IMG/VR virus record: IMGVR_UViG_3300032053_000117 | Coordinates: 1 to 50,879 of that record | Length of the DNA stretch: 50,879 bases | Direction: 5' to 3' (one strand) | Origin: a virus | Part shown: positions 8,384-50,845 of the stretch, piece after piece | Layout of the letters: every line of letters begins with the position of its first letter | Numbering within the stretch: the stretch's first letter is position 1 | Position numbers and translations under genes: made by a program | The notes under the pieces: model-generated | Database searches by the model: none | What the model saw: the letters and a program-made list of their open reading frames with translations, nothing else | What the model was told of the DNA's origin: nothing

Positions 8384-8578
8384 GTGATCCCAGAGTCGCC
8401 AGACGCGCAGAGCATTCAGCCGATTATTTTGGCCTTGGCTCCGGCGCGTGAAGTGATTCTGGAAGAACTGCACAAGCGCGAGCGCGAAGGCCCGCCGGGC
8501 CATCCTTTTAACGGCATCGTGCTTTCGCTGGCGGAAGACTACGGAATCTATCCAGACGAATTTAAGGCAACACTATGA
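8384..8578 (+). CDS. small hypothetical protein
   Basis: 64 aa from GTG 8384, 2 nt after the previous stop. Helical (AREVILEELHKREREGP) with a C-terminal GIVLSLAEDYGIYPDEF; it looks like a small helical adaptor. Stop overlaps the next start. Confidence 0.5.
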   Translation: MIPESPDAQSIQPIILALAPAREVILEELHKREREGPPGHPFNGIVLSLAEDYGIYPDEFKATL

Positions 8579-39697: not shown

Positions 39698-41071
39698 CTA
39701 ACTACGGCGAGGCCAGTCACTCGGCTTCCCCTGCCACTGGCTGAACACGTCCTGCGCCAGATCGCTGATGGCTTCCTGCTGCCAGAATTCTTCCAAGGCG
39801 TCGTCGGCCCGCGCCTGTTTCAATTCGTCGGCCATGTTCAGCTTTAAGTTGTCGATGGCGATGTCGACGGCGTGGGTTGCGGTCACCATCCGCACCGCTT
39901 CGGCCTCTGGCATGTCGAAGGCGTCTACAAGTTCCCGTACGATGGCGTCGCCGGTTACCCAGCCCTTCACCCACTTCTTGCCGGTGACCGCCGTGACCAC
40001 CTTCTTGGGCTTCTTGGGGCGCATCGGTGGACGCCCGTCGTACTTGGCTTTGATGGCGTCCATTTCGGCCCACGTTTCTGCGCTGGCTGGGGCGCTGTAG
40101 AGCGCCCAGAACCTTTCGGCGTCGGCTTCTTCGTCCTTCATGCCTTCGATGGAGTCCTTGAGAACTTGGAACTCGCTCAGGGTGAAATTCTCGCCCACGT
40201 CGAACATGGCCGGGCGGGGAATGCGGGAGTCCATCTCGGTCCAGAGGTCGGGAGGCAGGCCGCGCTCCAAGAGGCGGCGCTTGTCGATCTCCGGGCCGAT
40301 CTCGATGACGATGTGACCTTCCTTCAGGCGGGGTGCCACAACGCTCTCGTAGCGCCACAGCGCGTCGGAGACGTGGAGGATGCCGTCCACCAAGGGTGTG
40401 AGCCTGCGGCCCTTGCTGGCCCTCTGGAGCGCGTCCACGGTGCTTTGGAACGGACTGGTGTCTACCACGGTGGACGGCCAGCCAAGGCTCTCGGCCCAGT
40501 TTTCCAGACGCCGGGCGTAGCTGTGAGCAGCTTTCCCGTTGATTCTGAAGTAGATACCCGGTACAGGCTCCGGCGGAGCGGCGACGGTTGCGACGGCAAA
40601 GCCCAGTGATTCAGCCACTTCCACAGCATCATCCACAATCTGTTGGGGTTTGTGGACTCGGTTGGCCCCAAGGTGTATGGCCAGACGGTCGGTGCCGTTC
40701 AGGTCGCCAAGCTCGTTGACAGGTGCCCACCGAACCTTGGTCACGTCTCCACCGCCGGGCCGGGCTTCGGCTTGGTCGGTGATGGCGTAGAACAGGTTGA
40801 CCTCGCGCCCCGGTCCTCTGGCAGCGTGCCTTGCCCAGATCAAGGGTTCTGGCTCCACGTCGAGGCCAGTCTCCTCCTTCACTTCCCGCTTGGCGGCTTC
40901 CGCGTGGCTCTCGCTGCCTTTGGCGTGGCCGCCGGGGATGCTCCAGCGTCCTTTCTCGTCGGCAACCAAGAGCGCTTCCATGCCAGCCTCGCCGGAGCGG
41001 AGGACGACGCAGAGGTTGGACTGATCCACCGCTTCAGTGAGCCGGTCAACGATGAGCTTTGCGTTCATCAT
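39698..41071 (-). CDS. Nudix hydrolase fused to a large unknown domain
   Basis: 457 aa. Begins MMNAKLIVDRLTEAVDQ, an LLE-like N-terminus (LTE in place of LLE). Residues 18-140 are a Nudix domain: the box GGHAKGSESHAEAAKREVKE then ETGL fits G-x5-E-x7-RE-x2-EE-x-G. It should hydrolyse a nucleoside diphosphate derivative, which cannot be named. Residues 150-457 are unrecognised: an alpha/beta part (YFRINGKAAHSYARRLENWA), then charged helices with Lys/Pro-rich stretches. A fused Nudix with a virion-type N-terminus would be unusual. Its TAG stop opens the GTAGTTA element of the next gene. Confidence 0.75.
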   Translation of the reverse strand: MMNAKLIVDRLTEAVDQSNLCVVLRSGEAGMEALLVADEKGRWSIPGGHAKGSESHAEAAKREVKEETGLDVEPEPLIWARHAARGPGREVNLFYAITDQAEARPGGGDVTKVRWAPVNELGDLNGTDRLAIHLGANRVHKPQQIVDDAVEVAESLGFAVATVAAPPEPVPGIYFRINGKAAHSYARRLENWAESLGWPSTVVDTSPFQSTVDALQRASKGRRLTPLVDGILHVSDALWRYESVVAPRLKEGHIVIEIGPEIDKRRLLERGLPPDLWTEMDSRIPRPAMFDVGENFTLSEFQVLKDSIEGMKDEEADAERFWALYSAPASAETWAEMDAIKAKYDGRPPMRPKKPKKVVTAVTGKKWVKGWVTGDAIVRELVDAFDMPEAEAVRMVTATHAVDIAIDNLKLNMADELKQARADDALEEFWQQEAISDLAQDVFSQWQGKPSDWPRRS

Positions 41072-41072
41072 A

Positions 41073-44000
41073 TCATGTCATGTTCAGAGTGACCACCGTG
41101 TCTCCGAGCACAACGAAGCTGACCGGGTTGGTCAGGTACGTGTTGCCGTTGATGACCCAACTACCGAATGTATACGAAAGCACGGTCAAGATTTGATTCT
41201 TGGTCACGTCCACGAAAGCCGAGGTAAAGGCAGTGGCGTCGGAGCCGCCGTTGCGCAGGATTTCCAAGTCCCACTCGGAGCCAGCCAGCGGCTGCGGGTC
41301 CGGCACGACTTCGGCCACTTGGCAGTAATCGACGACGACATCCTTAACCAAGTCGCCGGAGACGATGGTGTTGAGCGTGGACGTGAGGTAGTAGGGAGGC
41401 GACAGGTCTTTGATGTATACAGTCGTCCCCTTGCGGCCAATCGCCGGGCTGGCGGCGATGTCGGTAATCTGGGCGTTGACTACACAGGCCAACTGGACTT
41501 CGGCAGCTTGGAGTGCTGCTGTGATGCTGGCTTTGGTCACGACTCCGGCGGTGAGGTCTTCGCGGCCCTCGTCGGTGATAAGGATAAACAGTTTCACCGC
41601 GCCGGGCCGGTACGCGTAGCTGGAAAGTGCAAAATCCATCGCTTCGTACCCATCCTCGTTACTGCCGTTGGTGACCAGCCCAGCGGCGGCGGTTTCCAGT
41701 TGGGATGCGGTGCCCCAGTCGCCCCCGCCAACGGCAATCTTGAACGCTTTTTGACCGGGGCCAAAGAGAACGGTTCCAAAGCCTACCATCGCGTAGCTGT
41801 TCACGTCGATACCTGCGCCGATTCCGGCAGCTACCAGAGCGCTCTCCAAGAGCGACGGCAGAAACGGTGGCGTGCCCGGCGGTCTGCCGAGCCACGCCTG
41901 CTCTGCCAGCATGGAGCCGGAGCAGTCTACGAGGAACACCACGTCCACGTACCCGGTAGCGGGCATGAGGGCAGGAATGGCTGTCAAGGTTATGACTGAT
42001 CCGTAACGGTAGGTGCCGAGGCCCAAAATGACGGCGGACCCCGGTGGCGCAAGGATGCTGCTAACCACCACGTCAGGCACCGGGATGGTGGGCGGGAACA
42101 GGCCCAGAGCTTCCGGCATCCAGAAGTCTGACTGGGCCACGTAGATGCCTTGCTCGATCATCCACGGCTGGCAAGCCACAAGGACGGGTGTCGAGAGTAG
42201 GGTGTCGTAGTAGGCTTTGGCTTTCTTTTCGTCTTCGTCGAAGTAGAGGCCGCGTGGCATCAAGGCAGGCTTGCCGACGTGTCCGGCTTTGCTTTTCATG
42301 AAAGCGCCGACTTGATGGACTGTGCCGGAACTATAGGCGGTGCCCGCGCTTTCCGTCGCGTAGAACTTTTGGCCTTCTGTGAAGGTAGTTCCGTTGTACA
42401 CAACAAAGGTCGTGTCCACTTCGTACTGGCGGCCCGGCGCTAGGCCGTCTTGTGCGATGGCAGGAACTTCGCGCAGGCGAGGGGTGCAGACCTCCGTGAA
42501 GCTCATCCAGTTCTCTGAGGCGTCCGGCGTCCAGTATGAGCCGCTGTCGCGGAAGGTCGGGGTGTCCGTGCCGTAATCAGCCAGCGCCAACGCGTAGCCC
42601 TGCTGGACGACCCGCTCTGAGCGGTCCAAACACTCCTGCCGCCACGACTGAAAGCCCCGGCTGAGCGGCGTGCTCTGGTACTCGGTGAGCGTCTGCACCT
42701 GAACTTGCTGAAGCTGGATCGGCAGCGTGGCGTCTTCAGTGTAGCTCGCGATGAACGGAACGGTGCCGGTGTGCGTTCCCATGCTGACGAACTGCCAGCG
42801 CAGAACGTCCGGTGTTTTGTTCTCGCCGTTGACATCGGCGTAGGCGGTGCTGCCGACGAAGCTGCCGGTTATGGCGAAGCGGGCCGTGCTCACGTCCGTT
42901 TTCTCGAAGGTGACCTTGCGGATGTGCAGTTCCCCGTTGCCGCCGGTCCAGTAGATCGGGAAAGTGAACGGACCTATGCTGTCCACGTCCACGCCTGCCG
43001 CCGAGGTTATGGCGATGTTGCCGTTGGTGGCTGTAAACGGGATGGGAGCCGTGTCTTGGATCACGGTCACGGCGTCGGCTCCCGAAGCCACGTACTGGGC
43101 CTTGATCCTGAAGCCGTCGGTCGTCCCGCTGAGGTTGGTGTACTCCAGCGCGACGCTCCACGACCCAAGAGGCAGCGCCAGCCCGAAGTTGAGCGCGTAT
43201 TGGCGCACGGTGCTGGGCACGACGCCGTACTGGGCGTAGGTGGGCACCGTGTTGGTGCCGGAGAAGGGGTCGCCCGGCAGGTAGAGCGATCCGTTGTATA
43301 CAATACCATCGCCGTTTTCGACCACGTAAACCTTGTTGCTCACGCTGCCGCTGACGACGTTGATGTCGAAGGTTGCGCCCCCGAGCGTGCCGCTGGTGTC
43401 GGACGTGTTCTGCGCTCCGGCCAGTTCAACCAGACCGTTGGGCTTGGAGAGCACGCTGACCCGGTAACCGGCGGCGGGTAACGTTCCGATCATGCTGAAC
43501 GTGATGTCGTCCGGTACGCTGAAGCTGACGCTGCCGGACTGCATGAGGCCGCCTGCCACAGAGTCGTTGTTGGTGCTGGTCAGGCAGAGGTCTGTGTCGG
43601 CAACCTCCATGCCTTCCGGCTTGAGCAGGCCCGCTTTCCCGCGCCAGTACTGAGGGTCCATGCGCTCTGGTATATGGGCCAAGGTTTCAAGGTACTGGCC
43701 GAAGGCGATGCCCGGAATCACCATCGCGTAAATCTGGGGCACGTGTACCTCATCCACGCGCTCGCGAATCCATTGCAGGGTTTTGCTCTGCGTGTCGTAG
43801 ATGATCTCGTTGGCTCCCGGCAGCGCCGGTTCAGACTGAAACACCCGGCGCGTGCCGTTGTCGCTGATGAGCGCGTAGATGTCCGCCTCCTGCTGAACGG
43901 TTCCAAAAGATTCGACCTGAACGTAGAGGCGCAGGGCGTGCTCGAAAGGGTTTTTCAGCACTTGCGCCAGCCGGGCGACGTAGCCCGCAAGCTGGTTGTC

Positions 44001-44585
44001 CCGGTCAGCGAGGTTGCGGTCGGGGTTCTTGAACAGGTCGCGGTTGAGCGGAAGGACGGCGTTGATGTCCGCCTGCATCGCAGCGCCCTGACCCAGCGAC
44101 CAGATGCTTGTGCTGGGGATGTCCGTGCCCGCCTGCGGGATGCTGGGGTCGACGAAGGCGCTGGCGCAGGCGCGGGCCAGAACTTCATAGACCAGCGCGT
44201 CGCGACCGTAGAGGTCCGCGTCGGCGTATCGGGCGGCGTCGTAGGGGATGCTGACGTTGGTGACGTGGCGTATCTGGCTGCTGAACGTTCCCGCTTCCGT
44301 GCCGACGAAGGGAAGCGTAAAAGGGGTTGGGCCTTGGAGGCTGGGCTTGAGGGTCGAGTAGTTGTATACATCTCCGACTTGGACGGAGACTTCCACGACC
44401 GCCGCGCCGACGATCAGGTCGCGGTAGGCAAGCTGCCGGTCGCGCTCTTGGTACACCTTGCAGTCAAAGGGAAGGTCCGGGTTGACCGGGGTGAGCGTCC
44501 CGCTGGAGGGAGCATCCACCGCTGACTCCCATCGGATGGTGTCGCGGAGCGCGATAACCAGTGCGCTTTCAAGTTGAGCGGCCAT
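41073..44585 (-). CDS. 1170-aa virion protein with vWA domain
   Basis: The first 860 residues are beta-rich and unrecognised, with features of tail or baseplate proteins (many Thr, Val, Tyr; no Cys clusters). About 880-1065 is a von Willebrand A domain: DVVFLVDCSGSM (DCSGS at 887-891 is the MIDAS metal site), SYAMVGFGTVLFG, VKLFILITDEGRED and a final YIKDL. A beta-rich domain ends the chain. vWA domains bind protein or sugar ligands through a metal ion, so it may be an adhesion or assembly part of the virion. It follows two smaller paralogous genes. Confidence 0.7.
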   Translation of the reverse strand: MAAQLESALVIALRDTIRWESAVDAPSSGTLTPVNPDLPFDCKVYQERDRQLAYRDLIVGAAVVEVSVQVGDVYNYSTLKPSLQGPTPFTLPFVGTEAGTFSSQIRHVTNVSIPYDAARYADADLYGRDALVYEVLARACASAFVDPSIPQAGTDIPSTSIWSLGQGAAMQADINAVLPLNRDLFKNPDRNLADRDNQLAGYVARLAQVLKNPFEHALRLYVQVESFGTVQQEADIYALISDNGTRRVFQSEPALPGANEIIYDTQSKTLQWIRERVDEVHVPQIYAMVIPGIAFGQYLETLAHIPERMDPQYWRGKAGLLKPEGMEVADTDLCLTSTNNDSVAGGLMQSGSVSFSVPDDITFSMIGTLPAAGYRVSVLSKPNGLVELAGAQNTSDTSGTLGGATFDINVVSGSVSNKVYVVENGDGIVYNGSLYLPGDPFSGTNTVPTYAQYGVVPSTVRQYALNFGLALPLGSWSVALEYTNLSGTTDGFRIKAQYVASGADAVTVIQDTAPIPFTATNGNIAITSAAGVDVDSIGPFTFPIYWTGGNGELHIRKVTFEKTDVSTARFAITGSFVGSTAYADVNGENKTPDVLRWQFVSMGTHTGTVPFIASYTEDATLPIQLQQVQVQTLTEYQSTPLSRGFQSWRQECLDRSERVVQQGYALALADYGTDTPTFRDSGSYWTPDASENWMSFTEVCTPRLREVPAIAQDGLAPGRQYEVDTTFVVYNGTTFTEGQKFYATESAGTAYSSGTVHQVGAFMKSKAGHVGKPALMPRGLYFDEDEKKAKAYYDTLLSTPVLVACQPWMIEQGIYVAQSDFWMPEALGLFPPTIPVPDVVVSSILAPPGSAVILGLGTYRYGSVITLTAIPALMPATGYVDVVFLVDCSGSMLAEQAWLGRPPGTPPFLPSLLESALVAAGIGAGIDVNSYAMVGFGTVLFGPGQKAFKIAVGGGDWGTASQLETAAAGLVTNGSNEDGYEAMDFALSSYAYRPGAVKLFILITDEGREDLTAGVVTKASITAALQAAEVQLACVVNAQITDIAASPAIGRKGTTVYIKDLSPPYYLTSTLNTIVSGDLVKDVVVDYCQVAEVVPDPQPLAGSEWDLEILRNGGSDATAFTSAFVDVTKNQILTVLSYTFGSWVINGNTYLTNPVSFVVLGDTVVTLNMT

Positions 44586-45501: not shown

Positions 45502-46206
45502 TTAGTGTCGTAGTCGTCGTTCGTGCATCCTATCCCAGATTTCTTTCTCCTGTTCAGGCGTGAAATCTTCCAGATGGAAATTTCGTTCTTCTGCCTCGCC
45601 TGTGCTGTAATCAAGGGTGCTCCATTCCGTGGAGTACCAGACGCCGGTACCAGCGGCGCTGGAAGATGCTTCGTCTGCGCCTTTGTCTCTCAGGAATTTC
45701 ACGGCCTTGTCTACAACGGTCAGGCCATCTTCACGGTCCCATTCGTCCGGCTCCATGTCTATGCCTTCCTCATCTTCCCAGCCGCTTTCGCTGAAGTCGC
45801 CATCCTCCACGCTTTCAGGCGTGGTGCGGGCGTAGGTGATGGTGATGCGCGGGCGCAGAACAGGCATCCGGCGGATAAAGTCTTCAGGGTTTTCCGAGTC
45901 GTCCGAGTCGACGTTCTCGCGCACCGGGCGCTCTTTCCAGAGCATGGGGTCTGGGAAGTTGCCCGCGACGCCGGGGGCGTTGGCCGGGTGGAGCGGGTTG
46001 AACCAGATGCCGCAGTCGAGGCAGTCGATCAGTCCTTCGTCATCCGCCTCGCTGACGTTGGTGCCTCCGCAGTCGGGGCAGCGGTTGGGCACGAGCCGGT
46101 CGAGGTCAGCGCGAGGGTCCAGCGCATCCGGGTCAGCATCCAGCAGCCGATGCACAACGCGGCGGGCTTCGGCCCGGCTTTCGGGAAAATGTAAGCGCTC
46201 AGACAT
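45502..46206 (-). CDS. zinc-ribbon modular protein with LLE-type N-terminus
   Basis: 234 aa from ATG 46206, overlapping the upstream stop by 8 bp. Begins MSERLHFPESRAEARRVVHR then LLDADPDALDPRADLDRLVP: both the LLE-type helix (LLD) and the DPRAD-RLV motif. A zinc ribbon follows (CPDCGG at about 43 and CLDCGIWFN at about 61). Near residue 95 comes SDDSENPEDFIRR, a linker, and then an acidic C-terminal domain (SESGWEDEEGIDMEPDEW). Not recognised as an enzyme. Confidence 0.65.
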   Translation of the reverse strand: MSERLHFPESRAEARRVVHRLLDADPDALDPRADLDRLVPNRCPDCGGTNVSEADDEGLIDCLDCGIWFNPLHPANAPGVAGNFPDPMLWKERPVRENVDSDDSENPEDFIRRMPVLRPRITITYARTTPESVEDGDFSESGWEDEEGIDMEPDEWDREDGLTVVDKAVKFLRDKGADEASSSAAGTGVWYSTEWSTLDYSTGEAEERNFHLEDFTPEQEKEIWDRMHERRLRH

Positions 46207-46522
46207 TGAGGATGCCTTCAGCTGACAGCCTCTCCTTGGTCGGCACTCGAAACTTCGTGCCCTCCGGCACACTGACCAAGGGATCGAGGATATTGTTTAC
46301 ACTGGCCAGCACCCACCAAAGCTGCGGGGTGCCGTAAAAGTCGCTGGCTAAGAGGTCGAGGCGCGGCACTCCTGCCGAGGGCATTGACCACAGTTCGTCG
46401 CTATCGTTGGGCACCACCGCAGGTTGCATCAGGCCAAACACGATGGTATCGCCGCCCAGATCGTAGATCGGGGTCTTGGCGAACATCGAATACTGCGGCA
46501 GTTCAATACGTTGACCAGCCAT
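46199..46522 (-). CDS. gp53-like baseplate wedge protein (LysM-like)
   Basis: 107 aa from ATG 46522, 6 nt after GTAGTTA. It has a clear gp53 family pattern: RLDLLASDFYGTPQLWWVLA at about 52-71, then NNILDPLVSVPEGTKFRVPT, i.e. R-D-LA-x-x-YG-x-x-x-LWW...N...DP...G...IP. In T4 gp53 joins baseplate wedges around the hub. Its presence implies a contractile (myovirus-type) tail. It sits between terminase and a zinc-ribbon protein. Confidence 0.8.
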   Translation of the reverse strand: MAGQRIELPQYSMFAKTPIYDLGGDTIVFGLMQPAVVPNDSDELWSMPSAGVPRLDLLASDFYGTPQLWWVLASVNNILDPLVSVPEGTKFRVPTKERLSAEGILNV

Positions 46523-46540: not shown

Positions 46541-49500
46541 CTAAGCCTTGAACACTTTGGAGCGCGTGTAGCCTCTCGCTGGCAGGGGAATTGCGACAGG
46601 CGGCGCTTCCTGTTCATACTGCTGCATTTGCTGCCCCGTGTACATCGACGGAGCGTTGTGGCTCGACATGCTGATCTTTTCCTCCGAGTTGACGGCGTTG
46701 AAGTAGGCTCCGGCAGCGCCGTCGGTGGTGTCCTTGGAGTTGTGTACGAAGACGCCCGCCTCTAGGCCAAAGTTTTCAACACCGGGAATTGAAATATCGT
46801 ATACATCTGTAGGAGGAACCGTTACTGAGCGGCAGGATATAACCTTGTGATTGCGCGGTAGGCATTTTTGAAGGCGAATCGTTGCGGCTTTTTGAATGGA
46901 TTGACGGTGTTTAGCCAAACGTTCCGGTGACCAGTTCTGTCGATTTTCGCGATTTGTTCGCGCAGCGGTTTTAGCTGAGTTTTGTCTACCAGTTTCGGAT
47001 TTTGCGTAGTCAGCGAGGCGCTGGGTCATTTTAGACCGGTAAACAGGGTCAGCCCATCTGGCTTTATTGCGTTCGGATGTGCGCTGGCTGGCGGCTAGTG
47101 AAGTTACGGAGGCGTGCAGACGGGCTTTTTGTTCCGTTGTCATGCCTTTGTATACAATCTTGCCAGCTTTTTGTTTTTTAGCGATAAAAGCAGAGTTGTT
47201 GCTGTAGCGCATTTTGAATGTCAAAGCGCGTCGTTTCACGATTTCAGGATTAGAAGTGGCTTTGGAGATTAGAACATGCCGCCGATTGTGCTCGCTCGCG
47301 GTCAGACGCTCAAGCAGGTCTGGGTCGTTGTTGAGTGAGTTCAGACTTGCGTGATGAATAACCTCACCAGTTCTGGCCGGAAAACCACAGTGTTTGGCTA
47401 CGAGTTTGTGGGTCATGCGCCAGTTGCCTTCGCTCCAAACCTGTTCGTAGTAGCCGGTGCCGCGTTGGTATCTTACTTTGTACAGCTTTGTATACAGCGG
47501 CATCAAACTATCCCCAGCCTTTAGATTTTTGGCCGCGCAGTAACCACCTGTCTTGAGCATGAATCGGTGGTCAGGTGTGCAGCGCACGACTTTTTGATTA
47601 TCGAGCGTGACTTCAACAAGCTCTGTGACGGTTTTTGTTTTTCTGGCGTTGACTGCTTTTGCAGGTATTACTTCTCCTTTGCCTGTGTTGGCGTAAATCC
47701 ACACTGGTTTTGTTTCTTGCGCGAGTTCGGTCAGTGACTTGGTTGTGCCGTTGAGCAATTTTACCTTAGTGTCGCCGGTAAAACAGCCGTCGGGCGGATG
47801 GTCGAACTTCTTGTCCATCTCCAGCAGGTTCTCCGCCTCGCGGATCATTTGCTCGTTGCGGGGCAGCCGTATGCGGTGTTCCTCGAATCCGGCCCGCCAA
47901 GCGGTGTATACGGATTTGTCCTTGTCGACAGAGAGCTTGTCGACTTTGAACTGGCGGGCTTCCAATTCCTGTAGGGGCATGACGGACTGGTACATATCTG
48001 CTGTAATCAAGCCGAACCGGTAGCTGCACATGTCCCTAAGCCAGAAAAAGAACTTCTGAATCTTACCGAGGTTGATCGGTTTGTTCTGCCCGGCGCAGAT
48101 GGTCAGGATGAAATCGTACTCCACGATCAGGCGGTATTCGGCAAACGGCTCCCCGTCCTTGACCAACCCTTCCACAAGCTGGCTGCCCGCCAAGTGGCAG
48201 ACTGCGACGCCCGCCAAGCTCTGCGTGGCCAAGTCCAGATGCGCGTAGCGCTGGCTCTGCGGGTGGCGGATCGGCTGGATGCGCGAGGCGACGCGGGTGA
48301 GGAAGGATTTGTGTTCGAGGTAGTCCCAGATGTTCTTGTTGTCCTCCGAACTGATGGGGATGCGCTGGATGCCGGGCTTGAGCGGGTTGGGCACCCCTTC
48401 CTGCGCGGCCACCTGTATACAATGCTCGATGTCGATGAGGCTGGGAAAGAGCCGGTGAGCGCCGCCGCAGGAGATGCCGGACAGGTTTTGAAGCTGGGAC
48501 TTGCAGTTGCGCCGGTACGCCTCGTGGTAGAACTTGGGCACCAGTTCGGTCTTGGCACCGTTGGGCGGCTCCTCGTGCGGCTCATCAAGAACTGGCTCTC
48601 CGTCCTCCGTGTACCAGCCGGACATGATGAACGGCTCCATGTTCTTCAGGCCGTAGGCGACCTTGAACCAGTGATGGTCGGGGCCGATGCCGGTCAGGGC
48701 GTGGCGCTTGATCTTGTAGACAGCGTTGCGGAAGACGATCTGGCTGATGGGCCGAGGCTCAACACCCGCCGGGAGCTTGCGATTTTCAAGATCGCGCTGG
48801 CGGTTGGATTCTTCGATTTCTCCGACCACCTTCTCCGTGAAGCTGGACTCGTCTTGCGCGGATGACGCGATGATGGAGATGGCCGGGAGGTACGCTTCGA
48901 TTTTCTGGAAGCGGTTGGCGATGCGCGTGCGGACCTGATCGTAAAGCTCGTACGCCTTGAGGTCTGGGTCTTTTTCCAAACGGAAGTTGCCCTCGTCCAG
49001 CCCGATGCCGACAAGGTTGCGCCCCAGCACATGCTGGCCCTTGGACCCGGCGGTGAGCCAGATGCGCGAGAGGCGTCCGTCGGGCAGGGTGTTCTCCATT
49101 GGCACGCGGTAGCCGCTGTAATCAAGCTCCGCGTTGTACTTGCAGACCTCCAAGAAGTAGGGGCTGTCGGACATGTAGGTCATGGCCGTGCCGAAAGCTG
49201 TGTCCTTGACCGCCTCCTTGGTGACGGACAGGAGATTGTAGACAATGTTCGAGTTGCGGTTCAGCCCGAAGAAGTGCTGCGGGTTCTTCAGGTACGTGGC
49301 AATGCACATCCGGTAGAGCAGCACGGTCACCATCATGGCCGTGTTGTGCGTGACCGTGAAATCTTTGAGCAAAAACCGGTGGTTCCCATCAAGTTCAAAA
49401 CCGTAGTAATCGCCTTCGTCTAAAGGTATTACAGCGAACTTCGTTTTCAAGCAGTCTGCCTGTCGTTGGTGCCCTGTGATTGGGCTGGTGACTGGCTGGC

Positions 49501-50845
49501 CTTTTTTGCCTGTCTGTTTGCGCAAAAGTTTAGGATTTGCGTCGTAAGCGCCGGAGATGATCGTCCTGTAGTAGGCCGTACTATTGCAGATTTTGATTTT
49601 TGTCTGGGCAAAGTAGCCAAGCGATTGGGCGAGAAAACGGATTGAATCAGCAAACTTCTTAGGCTTTACTGTGATCTCGTAGACTCCGTTGCTCTGTTTG
49701 GCGGTTCGATTTTTTGCGCGTTTACCGCCTGTTGACTTGGAGCCATCCGTGTCTATAAGACCGGCAAAGACCTTTTGCCTGACGTGCTTTGAATTGAATA
49801 GATAAGCAGAAGGAATGTGCTTTTCCTGTGAGCCGTCTAGAGCGCAAAGACCGTAGCTCTTGAGTAAGTTTCTAAGTGGATTGCCGTCGATCCTGGCCTT
49901 TTTACGGTCTATAACGGAAGCGGAATAGGTTTTGGCCGCATTGCCGCGCTTGTCTACACCGACCGTAACGTGAAGTCCGAATGACTGCGCATAGGCCGTG
50001 TGGTAGGCCGCTATTTCGTCATCTGCGGTCGTTATCGTTGGAGAATCCGTATCTCCGTCGCCAAGCCAAAGCCCAAGCCAGTACGGGTCTACGGCCACAG
50101 GTTTTTCTACCCAGTCGCAGCCTGTCCTATAAAGACGTGCCTGATGGCGCTTTTGTCGTGGCCACTTCAAAAAGTCAGTGACGCTGACGTGTTCAATTTT
50201 TGAGCTGACCGAGCTTTTAAGGCAAAGGACGTGAGCATCGTTGCAGACAAACGGTTCACCTTTCGCCGGATAAATCTGGTACAGTGGCCCGCGCCCGCGT
50301 GTTGTAGACAGCACCTTGCGTGGCGTTGAATCGTCTCCCATCAGGAGTTCACCTGCTTTGATTTCCTGCACAGGCTTGACTGTTCCGTCTGACATCAAGC
50401 ATAACTCGTTGTAGCCTAAACACTTACCTATGCCCAGTGATCCGGTGATTACCATGTTGTGGATGCGGCTGTTTACATTCAGGTGGGCGCTGAGCAGTTC
50501 AATCCACGCAGGCCAGATGCCCTCGTTTTCGCCTTCAATGGGCCGCCACGATCTGCCGAGGAAGTAGTCTTTGAGGATGAACTCCTCGATGTCGGGCGGC
50601 TTCTTGACGTAGTCCAGACGCCAGAGTTCGCTGTCGGCGTTGAGGCAGCCGGGGCTGCCCGAGCGCATGATGGCAGCCAGTTCGTCGAACCGTTGCTGCT
50701 CCAGCGGCGTTAAAGACGAGTCGCGTATGCCCGGCGTGATGTTGCGCTCCCCCGTCAGGGTTTGCTCCATCGCCCGGTCAACCCGCTCCGTCACCATGCG
50801 GTGCGTTACCGTCTTGGGAGTAGCGTTGTCGGGCGTAGAACTCAT
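46541..50845 (-). CDS. terL: terminase large subunit with two inteins
   Basis: 1434-aa precursor; the spliced product would be 725 aa. The exteins carry the ATPase P-loop GSLGIGK/T (residues 135-141 then 502), Walker B GIGLDE (614-618) with the SSA coupling motif (about 660), and an RNase H-like nuclease: HLDLA (D871), LITADM (D950) and G/SKDTTDG (1370-1376). Intein 1 (142-501) splits the P-loop after its Lys; intein 2 (1021-1369) splits the third nuclease motif. The enzyme packages DNA into proheads and cuts it. The second half of the N-terminus is unrelated to any other gene here. ATG 50845 has no strong ribosome site. Confidence 0.93.
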   Translation of the reverse strand: MSSTPDNATPKTVTHRMVTERVDRAMEQTLTGERNITPGIRDSSLTPLEQQRFDELAAIMRSGSPGCLNADSELWRLDYVKKPPDIEEFILKDYFLGRSWRPIEGENEGIWPAWIELLSAHLNVNSRIHNMVITGSLGIGKCLGYNELCLMSDGTVKPVQEIKAGELLMGDDSTPRKVLSTTRGRGPLYQIYPAKGEPFVCNDAHVLCLKSSVSSKIEHVSVTDFLKWPRQKRHQARLYRTGCDWVEKPVAVDPYWLGLWLGDGDTDSPTITTADDEIAAYHTAYAQSFGLHVTVGVDKRGNAAKTYSASVIDRKKARIDGNPLRNLLKSYGLCALDGSQEKHIPSAYLFNSKHVRQKVFAGLIDTDGSKSTGGKRAKNRTAKQSNGVYEITVKPKKFADSIRFLAQSLGYFAQTKIKICNSTAYYRTIISGAYDANPKLLRKQTGKKGQPVTSPITGHQRQADCLKTKFAVIPLDEGDYYGFELDGNHRFLLKDFTVTHNTAMMVTVLLYRMCIATYLKNPQHFFGLNRNSNIVYNLLSVTKEAVKDTAFGTAMTYMSDSPYFLEVCKYNAELDYSGYRVPMENTLPDGRLSRIWLTAGSKGQHVLGRNLVGIGLDEGNFRLEKDPDLKAYELYDQVRTRIANRFQKIEAYLPAISIIASSAQDESSFTEKVVGEIEESNRQRDLENRKLPAGVEPRPISQIVFRNAVYKIKRHALTGIGPDHHWFKVAYGLKNMEPFIMSGWYTEDGEPVLDEPHEEPPNGAKTELVPKFYHEAYRRNCKSQLQNLSGISCGGAHRLFPSLIDIEHCIQVAAQEGVPNPLKPGIQRIPISSEDNKNIWDYLEHKSFLTRVASRIQPIRHPQSQRYAHLDLATQSLAGVAVCHLAGSQLVEGLVKDGEPFAEYRLIVEYDFILTICAGQNKPINLGKIQKFFFWLRDMCSYRFGLITADMYQSVMPLQELEARQFKVDKLSVDKDKSVYTAWRAGFEEHRIRLPRNEQMIREAENLLEMDKKFDHPPDGCFTGDTKVKLLNGTTKSLTELAQETKPVWIYANTGKGEVIPAKAVNARKTKTVTELVEVTLDNQKVVRCTPDHRFMLKTGGYCAAKNLKAGDSLMPLYTKLYKVRYQRGTGYYEQVWSEGNWRMTHKLVAKHCGFPARTGEVIHHASLNSLNNDPDLLERLTASEHNRRHVLISKATSNPEIVKRRALTFKMRYSNNSAFIAKKQKAGKIVYKGMTTEQKARLHASVTSLAASQRTSERNKARWADPVYRSKMTQRLADYAKSETGRQNSAKTAARTNRENRQNWSPERLAKHRQSIQKAATIRLQKCLPRNHKVISCRSVTVPPTDVYDISIPGVENFGLEAGVFVHNSKDTTDGAAGAYFNAVNSEEKISMSSHNAPSMYTGQQMQQYEQEAPPVAIPLPARGYTRSKVFKA
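46739..47785 (-). other. intein 2 of terminase, HNH endonuclease type
   Basis: 349 aa, precursor residues 1021-1369. Starts with CFTGDTKVKLLNG (block A), has TPDHRFML (block B) and ends NFGLEAGVFVHN (blocks F-G) before Ser. Residues about 140-170 are an HNH-type homing endonuclease: EVIHHASLNSLNND and ASEHNRRH. Then about 130 residues of basic, Thr/Arg/Lys/Gln-rich DNA-binding-like helices. The region looks less GC-rich than the exteins, which suggests later gain. Confidence 0.92.
49343..50422 (-). other. intein 1 of terminase, LAGLIDADG type
   Basis: 360 aa, precursor residues 142-501. Starts CLGYNELCLMSDGTVKPVQE (block A), has NDAHVL (block B, His present) and ends HRFLLKDFTVTHN (blocks F-G) before Thr. 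The two LAGLIDADG helices are WLGLWLGDGDTD (about 116-126) and VFAGLIDTDGS (about 218-228), so the homing endonuclease looks intact. Confidence 0.94.

Follow-up and report, generated by a model that had tools for sequence, protein, structure and literature searches.

The window analysed in this work is a 50,879-nt stretch of DNA, the metagenome-derived virus record IMGVR_UViG_3300032053_000117. Its minus strand carries, at 46541..50845, an open reading frame of 1434 codons plus stop, which begins with ATG, remains open to the stop at 46541 and contains no frameshift or internal stop. The frame encodes a large terminase (TerL) precursor built from three exteins and two inteins, all parts named below lying on the minus strand. 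Extein 1 (aa 1-141, 50423..50845) ends with the P-loop residues GSLGIGK and is followed by intein 1 (aa 142-501, 360 aa, 49343..50422), which is flanked by Lys141 and Thr502. Extein 2 (aa 502-1020, 47786..49342) spans Walker B to HPPDG, and intein 2 (aa 1021-1369, 349 aa, 46739..47785) lies between Gly1020 and Ser1370. Extein 3 (aa 1370-1434, 46544..46738) opens with SKDTTDG, the nuclease motif III. With a slash marking the splice junctions, the sequences read GSLGIGK/CLGYNELC...FTVTHN/TAMMVT for intein 1 and FDHPPDG/CFTGDTKV...GVFVHN/SKDTTDG for intein 2. Joined together, the exteins form a single protein of 725 aa, which matches phage terminases in a sequence search and TerL folds in a structure search, and which has the motifs of a phage large terminase (in the numbering of the relative L002): Walker A K141, Walker B D257/E258, and nuclease D511, D590, and D663 with D666.

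Other genes of the window deserve a brief mention. A 1170-aa protein (41073-44585, minus strand), encoded close to the baseplate wedge gene at 46199-46522, shows a weak von Willebrand A match near its C-terminus (0.001, below the cut-off). A NUDIX domain (6.6e-16) forms the N-terminal part of a 457-aa protein (39698-41071, minus strand), the long remaining part of which has no assigned function.

Intein identity and splicing residues

Both inteins are of class 1. Intein 1 begins with C142, has the block B motif CNDAH and ends with HN501, followed by T502. Its block B carries Asn at the Thr position of the TxxH motif, a variant that the block B of PI-SceI resembles. The matches to Hom_end_hint (3.8e-17), Hom_end and LAGLIDADG_3 (8.7e-9) correspond to a Hint domain split around an endonuclease. 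The alignment with PI-SceI (1.2e-16) covers the C-terminal HN and both LAGLIDADG motifs, LGLWLGDGD at 50051..50077 and FAGLIDTDG at 49742..49768, in which the Asp residues are present. Intein 2 begins with C1021, has the block B motif TPDH (TxxH) and ends with HN1369, followed by S1370; it matches the profile Intein_splicing (1.1e-15), and intein_Nterm and intein_Cterm score above their cut-offs. Its putative endonuclease is of the HNH type: the region HHASLNSLNNDPDLLERLTASEHNRRH (47276..47356) retains the HNH His residues and matches HNH_3 with an E value of 0.0059, below the Pfam cut-off, and the PHROG HNH endonuclease families at 1.7e-7 and 4.2e-6. Judging by these residues, both inteins are probably splicing-competent, each independently of the other.

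Intein-free relatives and foreign composition

In IMG/VR the extein has two close relatives, both devoid of inteins: L002, with 725 aa and about 82% identity, and L003, with about 71% identity. The uninterrupted TerL of L002 reads GSLGIGKTVMMVT and HPPDGSKDTTDAA over the two junctions, L003 reads likewise, and the empty sites of both are GSLGIGKT and HPPDGSKDTTDA. These relatives demonstrate that the exteins, once joined, correspond to a normal TerL. At the DNA level, the matches between the window and L002, which also extend to the downstream neighbour genes, end at the intein boundaries or within a few bases of them, the exception being the 5' flank of intein 1, in which the match resumes 20 bases off. 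Since the relatives are continuous over the junctions and the DNA matches break at the intein boundaries, a chance arrangement is excluded. The first-pass annotation had proposed two inteins in TerL, one at the P-loop K/T position and one in the third acidic motif of the nuclease (HPPDG/SKDTTDG), and this proposal is borne out by the exact junctions, the profile matches and the empty sites. The splicing residues that it had listed (Cys1, block B His, His-Asn and +1 Thr/Ser) are present in the translation of both inteins, and the 725-aa product that it had predicted agrees with the length of the joined exteins, as well as with that of the L002 TerL.

The inteins also differ from the exteins in composition. 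Third-position GC (GC3) is 0.55 in intein 1 and 0.50 in intein 2, whereas the three exteins have values of 0.79, 0.84 and 0.77, and in eight other large ORFs every 350-codon segment reaches at least 0.67. Such low GC3 is as expected of imported homing elements and, taken together with the empty sites of the relatives, makes later insertion of DNA of foreign composition the simplest account of the inteins. We also looked for a co-conversion signature, i.e. raised identity between the window and L002 beside the insertion sites: there is none at the P-loop, and the slightly raised identity in the motif III flank is no more than conservation alone would give.

Distribution of the two insertion sites

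The site of intein 1, GSLGIGK/T, is the known TerL1-a, located between the Lys and Thr of Walker A, as defined in PMC5050341. The seven sites at which that mycobacteriophage survey places terminase inteins, K/T among them, all belong to the ATPase domain. The nearest full-length relatives of intein 1 are phage helicase inteins (Klebsiella pKp383 and others), about 37-39% identical to it, which share its K/T site and LAGLIDADG endonuclease but reside in a helicase as the host protein. Intein 1 groups with these helicase inteins, with a TerL mini-intein at K/T (L067), with that of Segz1 (TerL, GGRG/SGKT) and with L066, an IMG/VR intein that resides in a helicase. The TerL1-a inteins of mycobacteriophages occupy the same position in the TerL P-loop, yet the mycobacteriophage, K64-1 and RcMenchie TerL P-loop inteins that we examined have no Cys1 and fall outside the intein 1 group. 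For RcMenchie, the idea of a mutated first residue (Arg) was dropped, as the blocks read like those of a class 3 intein. From these groupings we reasonably infer that inteins may have moved between P-loop proteins.

The site of intein 2 was searched with a pattern for motif III intein ends, V-H-N-[STC]-K-D-x-[AT]-D-[AG], which yielded 34 contigs (33 from IMG/VR and one bacterial genome contig), every one of them with an intein C-terminus before SKD. A search with intein 2 itself added further TerLs of the form HPxxG/C...HN/SKD (L006, L009, L010, L016, L024 and L031, with L041 seen at the N-side), and also a second group at DH(A)/C.../CDALRY, a site like that of Microcystis phage Mic1. The tree shows strong clustering of the motif III inteins (2 changes versus 16.6 when shuffled) and places intein 2, with weak support (84/75), in the company of most of them; the intein of L016 is the most similar to it, at 44% identity over 194 columns. 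No close relative of intein 2 was detected in the isolate collection, which may omit near relatives of the window. To judge from these sequences, the G/SKD nuclease site is common in uncultured phages. We found no description of it in the open-access literature, and it is not in the mycobacteriophage survey PMC5050341.

Most of the other TerLs with an intein at the nuclease site carry that intein alone. Both sites, K/T and G/SKD, are filled in an unrelated TerL, L192 (IMGVR_UViG_3300033141_004862), the only such case among the approximately 20 full-length TerLs whose motif III carries an intein; the K/T intein occurs in none of approximately 70 TerLs that lack the motif III intein. In these small, hand-counted numbers, co-occurrence of the two inteins is not above chance (Fisher p = 0.22), the P-loop status in the motif III set having been judged by a script from junctions and ORF lengths, with some contigs partial. 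L192 differs from the window in that its P-loop mini-intein has no endonuclease match and its extein is a distant TerL.

Position of the insertion sites in the TerL fold

A sequence search of TerL against solved structures reached no terminase, hence a fold search was needed. A structure model from a two-sequence alignment was useless (pLDDT 31) and was replaced by an AlphaFold model of the L002 TerL (mean pLDDT 84.9) based on an alignment of 52 rows, which also served to assess invariance. Residues invariant in the 52 TerLs include, in L002 numbering, K141, D257, E258, D511, D590, G660, S661, K662, D663 and D666. The invariance of G660-D666 is partly built in, because the pattern that fetched most of the 52 loci contained these residues; motif III is largely kept in isolate phages that were not picked by that pattern.

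In the fold search, residues 83-435 of the L002 model match the ATPase of P74-26 TerL (Z 18.6), residues 434-677 match the G20c nuclease (Z 15.8) and the two domains together match HK97 TerL (Z 17.8), so that in the model both insertion sites fall within TerL-like ATPase and nuclease folds. As modelled, the helix that follows the P-loop strand begins at K141, and the long last helix of the nuclease begins at D663. Where L002 reads GSKDTTDAAAGAY, the P74-26 TerL reads GHDDIVMSLALAY, with the Asp pair D428 and D429, which we take to be catalytic. The alignment of the L002-type TerL with HK97 by hhalign is weak, and the structural ranges and motif reading, rather than a residue alignment, suggest that L002 motif III is likely the equivalent of P74-26 Asp428/Asp429. 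The intein 2 junction therefore lies two residues upstream of the invariant D663, the likely Asp of motif III.

Discussion

The locus is very probably a TerL precursor gene of a tailed phage with two self-splicing, selfish homing inteins, which differ in endonuclease type and are inserted at conserved catalytic codons. Each intein would remove itself after translation by an acyl shift at Cys1, transfer to the +1 Thr or Ser and cyclisation of Asn, to give a 725-aa terminase with Walker A and nuclease motif III intact. The predicted endonuclease that each intein carries, LAGLIDADG or HNH, would cut the intein-free terminase alleles of co-infecting phages, and by such cutting, we propose, the intein spreads. 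Homing is the best explanation for the active-site positions, because these codons are among the most conserved of the gene and would provide a stable DNA target; in addition, imprecise loss of an intein at catalytic codons would destroy TerL.

A TerL with two inteins is a known kind, since Mic1, a crAss-like phage and L192 precede or parallel the window. In the consulted passages of PMC7156551, each of the two domains of the Mic1 TerL, ATPase and nuclease, contains one intein, and the two inteins are proposed, there without test, to control packaging. The Mic1 TerL (MN013189) thus resembles that of the window in having one intein per domain, but its P-loop is uninterrupted, the sites being LLTG/C.../TPKG and DHL/C.../CDALRY with +1 Thr and Cys. 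A delta crAss-like phage also has two inteins in one TerL, described as of the Hint-Hop type (PMC7886860). AceL-TerL, GOS-TerL and Cat-TerL (PMC11766414) are likewise natural inteins named after TerL, yet they are split and have +1 Cys. As a single case, the window adds one two-intein terminase to the known set.

It follows from the positions that each insertion would block one activity until spliced, and the precursor would have both activities blocked. From this the first-pass annotation had drawn a possible delay of DNA packaging, for which we found no support. A splicing timer, in which slow or conditional splicing withholds ATPase and nuclease and makes packaging and genome cutting late or condition-bound, is in line with the idea published for Mic1 (PMC7156551) and with the recurrence of the two-site combination in L192; we consider it very unlikely. 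The close relatives do without either intein, most TerLs with the motif III intein have that one only, K/T and motif III inteins are not associated beyond chance, and the five terminase inteins tested as reporter fusions in PMC5050341 spliced readily. Moreover, the inteins look recently imported, and their foreign composition and endonuclease domains, the motifs of which are apparently intact, suit a selfish element. Very improbable, too, is a two-lock gate, where both splicing events would be conditional and together release motor and nuclease, tying packaging to an infection-stage signal. We therefore regard the inteins as homing elements that probably have no regulatory role.

Decay, with one or both inteins no longer splicing or homing and the terminase gene dead or only partly working, could be imagined for a fragment from a metagenome. 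It is highly improbable given 1434 codons free of frameshifts and stops, the retention of Cys1, block B His, penultimate His, terminal Asn and +1 Thr/Ser together with the LAGLIDADG Asp and HNH His residues, and extein catalytic motifs that are fully conserved relative to L002. The same metagenomic origin, and the fact that no second copy of the exact two-intein allele was found, might point to an assembly artefact in which inteins of other phages were fused in silico with the TerL. The reading frame is kept at each of the four junctions, the intein ends are complete, the sites are known or recurrent and the L192 contig carries the same combination, which makes such an artefact hardly credible. 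The matched intein-bearing and intein-free TerL alleles offer a system in which homing to conserved DNA can be set against regulation at active sites.

Other inteins in phage terminases

Further TerL inteins were seen in uncultured and isolate phages. An HNH intein at nuclease motif II (DGFQ/S or DQFQ/S) is present in the TerLs of L007 (666-3449, plus strand), L143 (3764-6574, plus strand) and L175 (5488-9402, minus strand); in L175 both nuclease motifs are filled, because a motif III intein is present as well. The motif III intein looks naturally split in L163, L166, L178 and L185 (with L183 and L189 as partial cases), where the TerL part has an N-intein of approximately 105 aa at its end and is followed by a small ORF composed of the C-intein and SKD...; in L163, L166 and L178 a free-standing ORF lies between the two pieces. 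In L187 (7140-10676, minus strand), a possible intein right after the Walker B-like VGLDE (VGLDE/CFGED) accompanies the motif III intein. Thus the TerL P-loop, nuclease motifs II and III and probably the Walker B region are intein targets in uncultured phages, the TerLs of which offer new natural inteins as well as split ones.

In the isolate Streptococcus phage vB_SagM-GXN1 (PQ819873), the unannotated terminase region (L209, 2087-5057, plus strand) shows an intein end just before CALMDE, which is probably Walker B, and apart from it a small ORF with HN/SKDISDS at its end, so that this phage probably has two inteins, one of them split. The motif III intein of L162 (reverse complement, C-junction at 8403) was considered as a further split intein and rejected, being continuous if TGA encodes Gly: all 45 of its in-frame stop codons are TGA, none being TAA or TAG, and with TGA read as Gly 963 codons are open, giving CFTGDTRIALADG. 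This reading suggests a phage of a host in which TGA encodes Gly.
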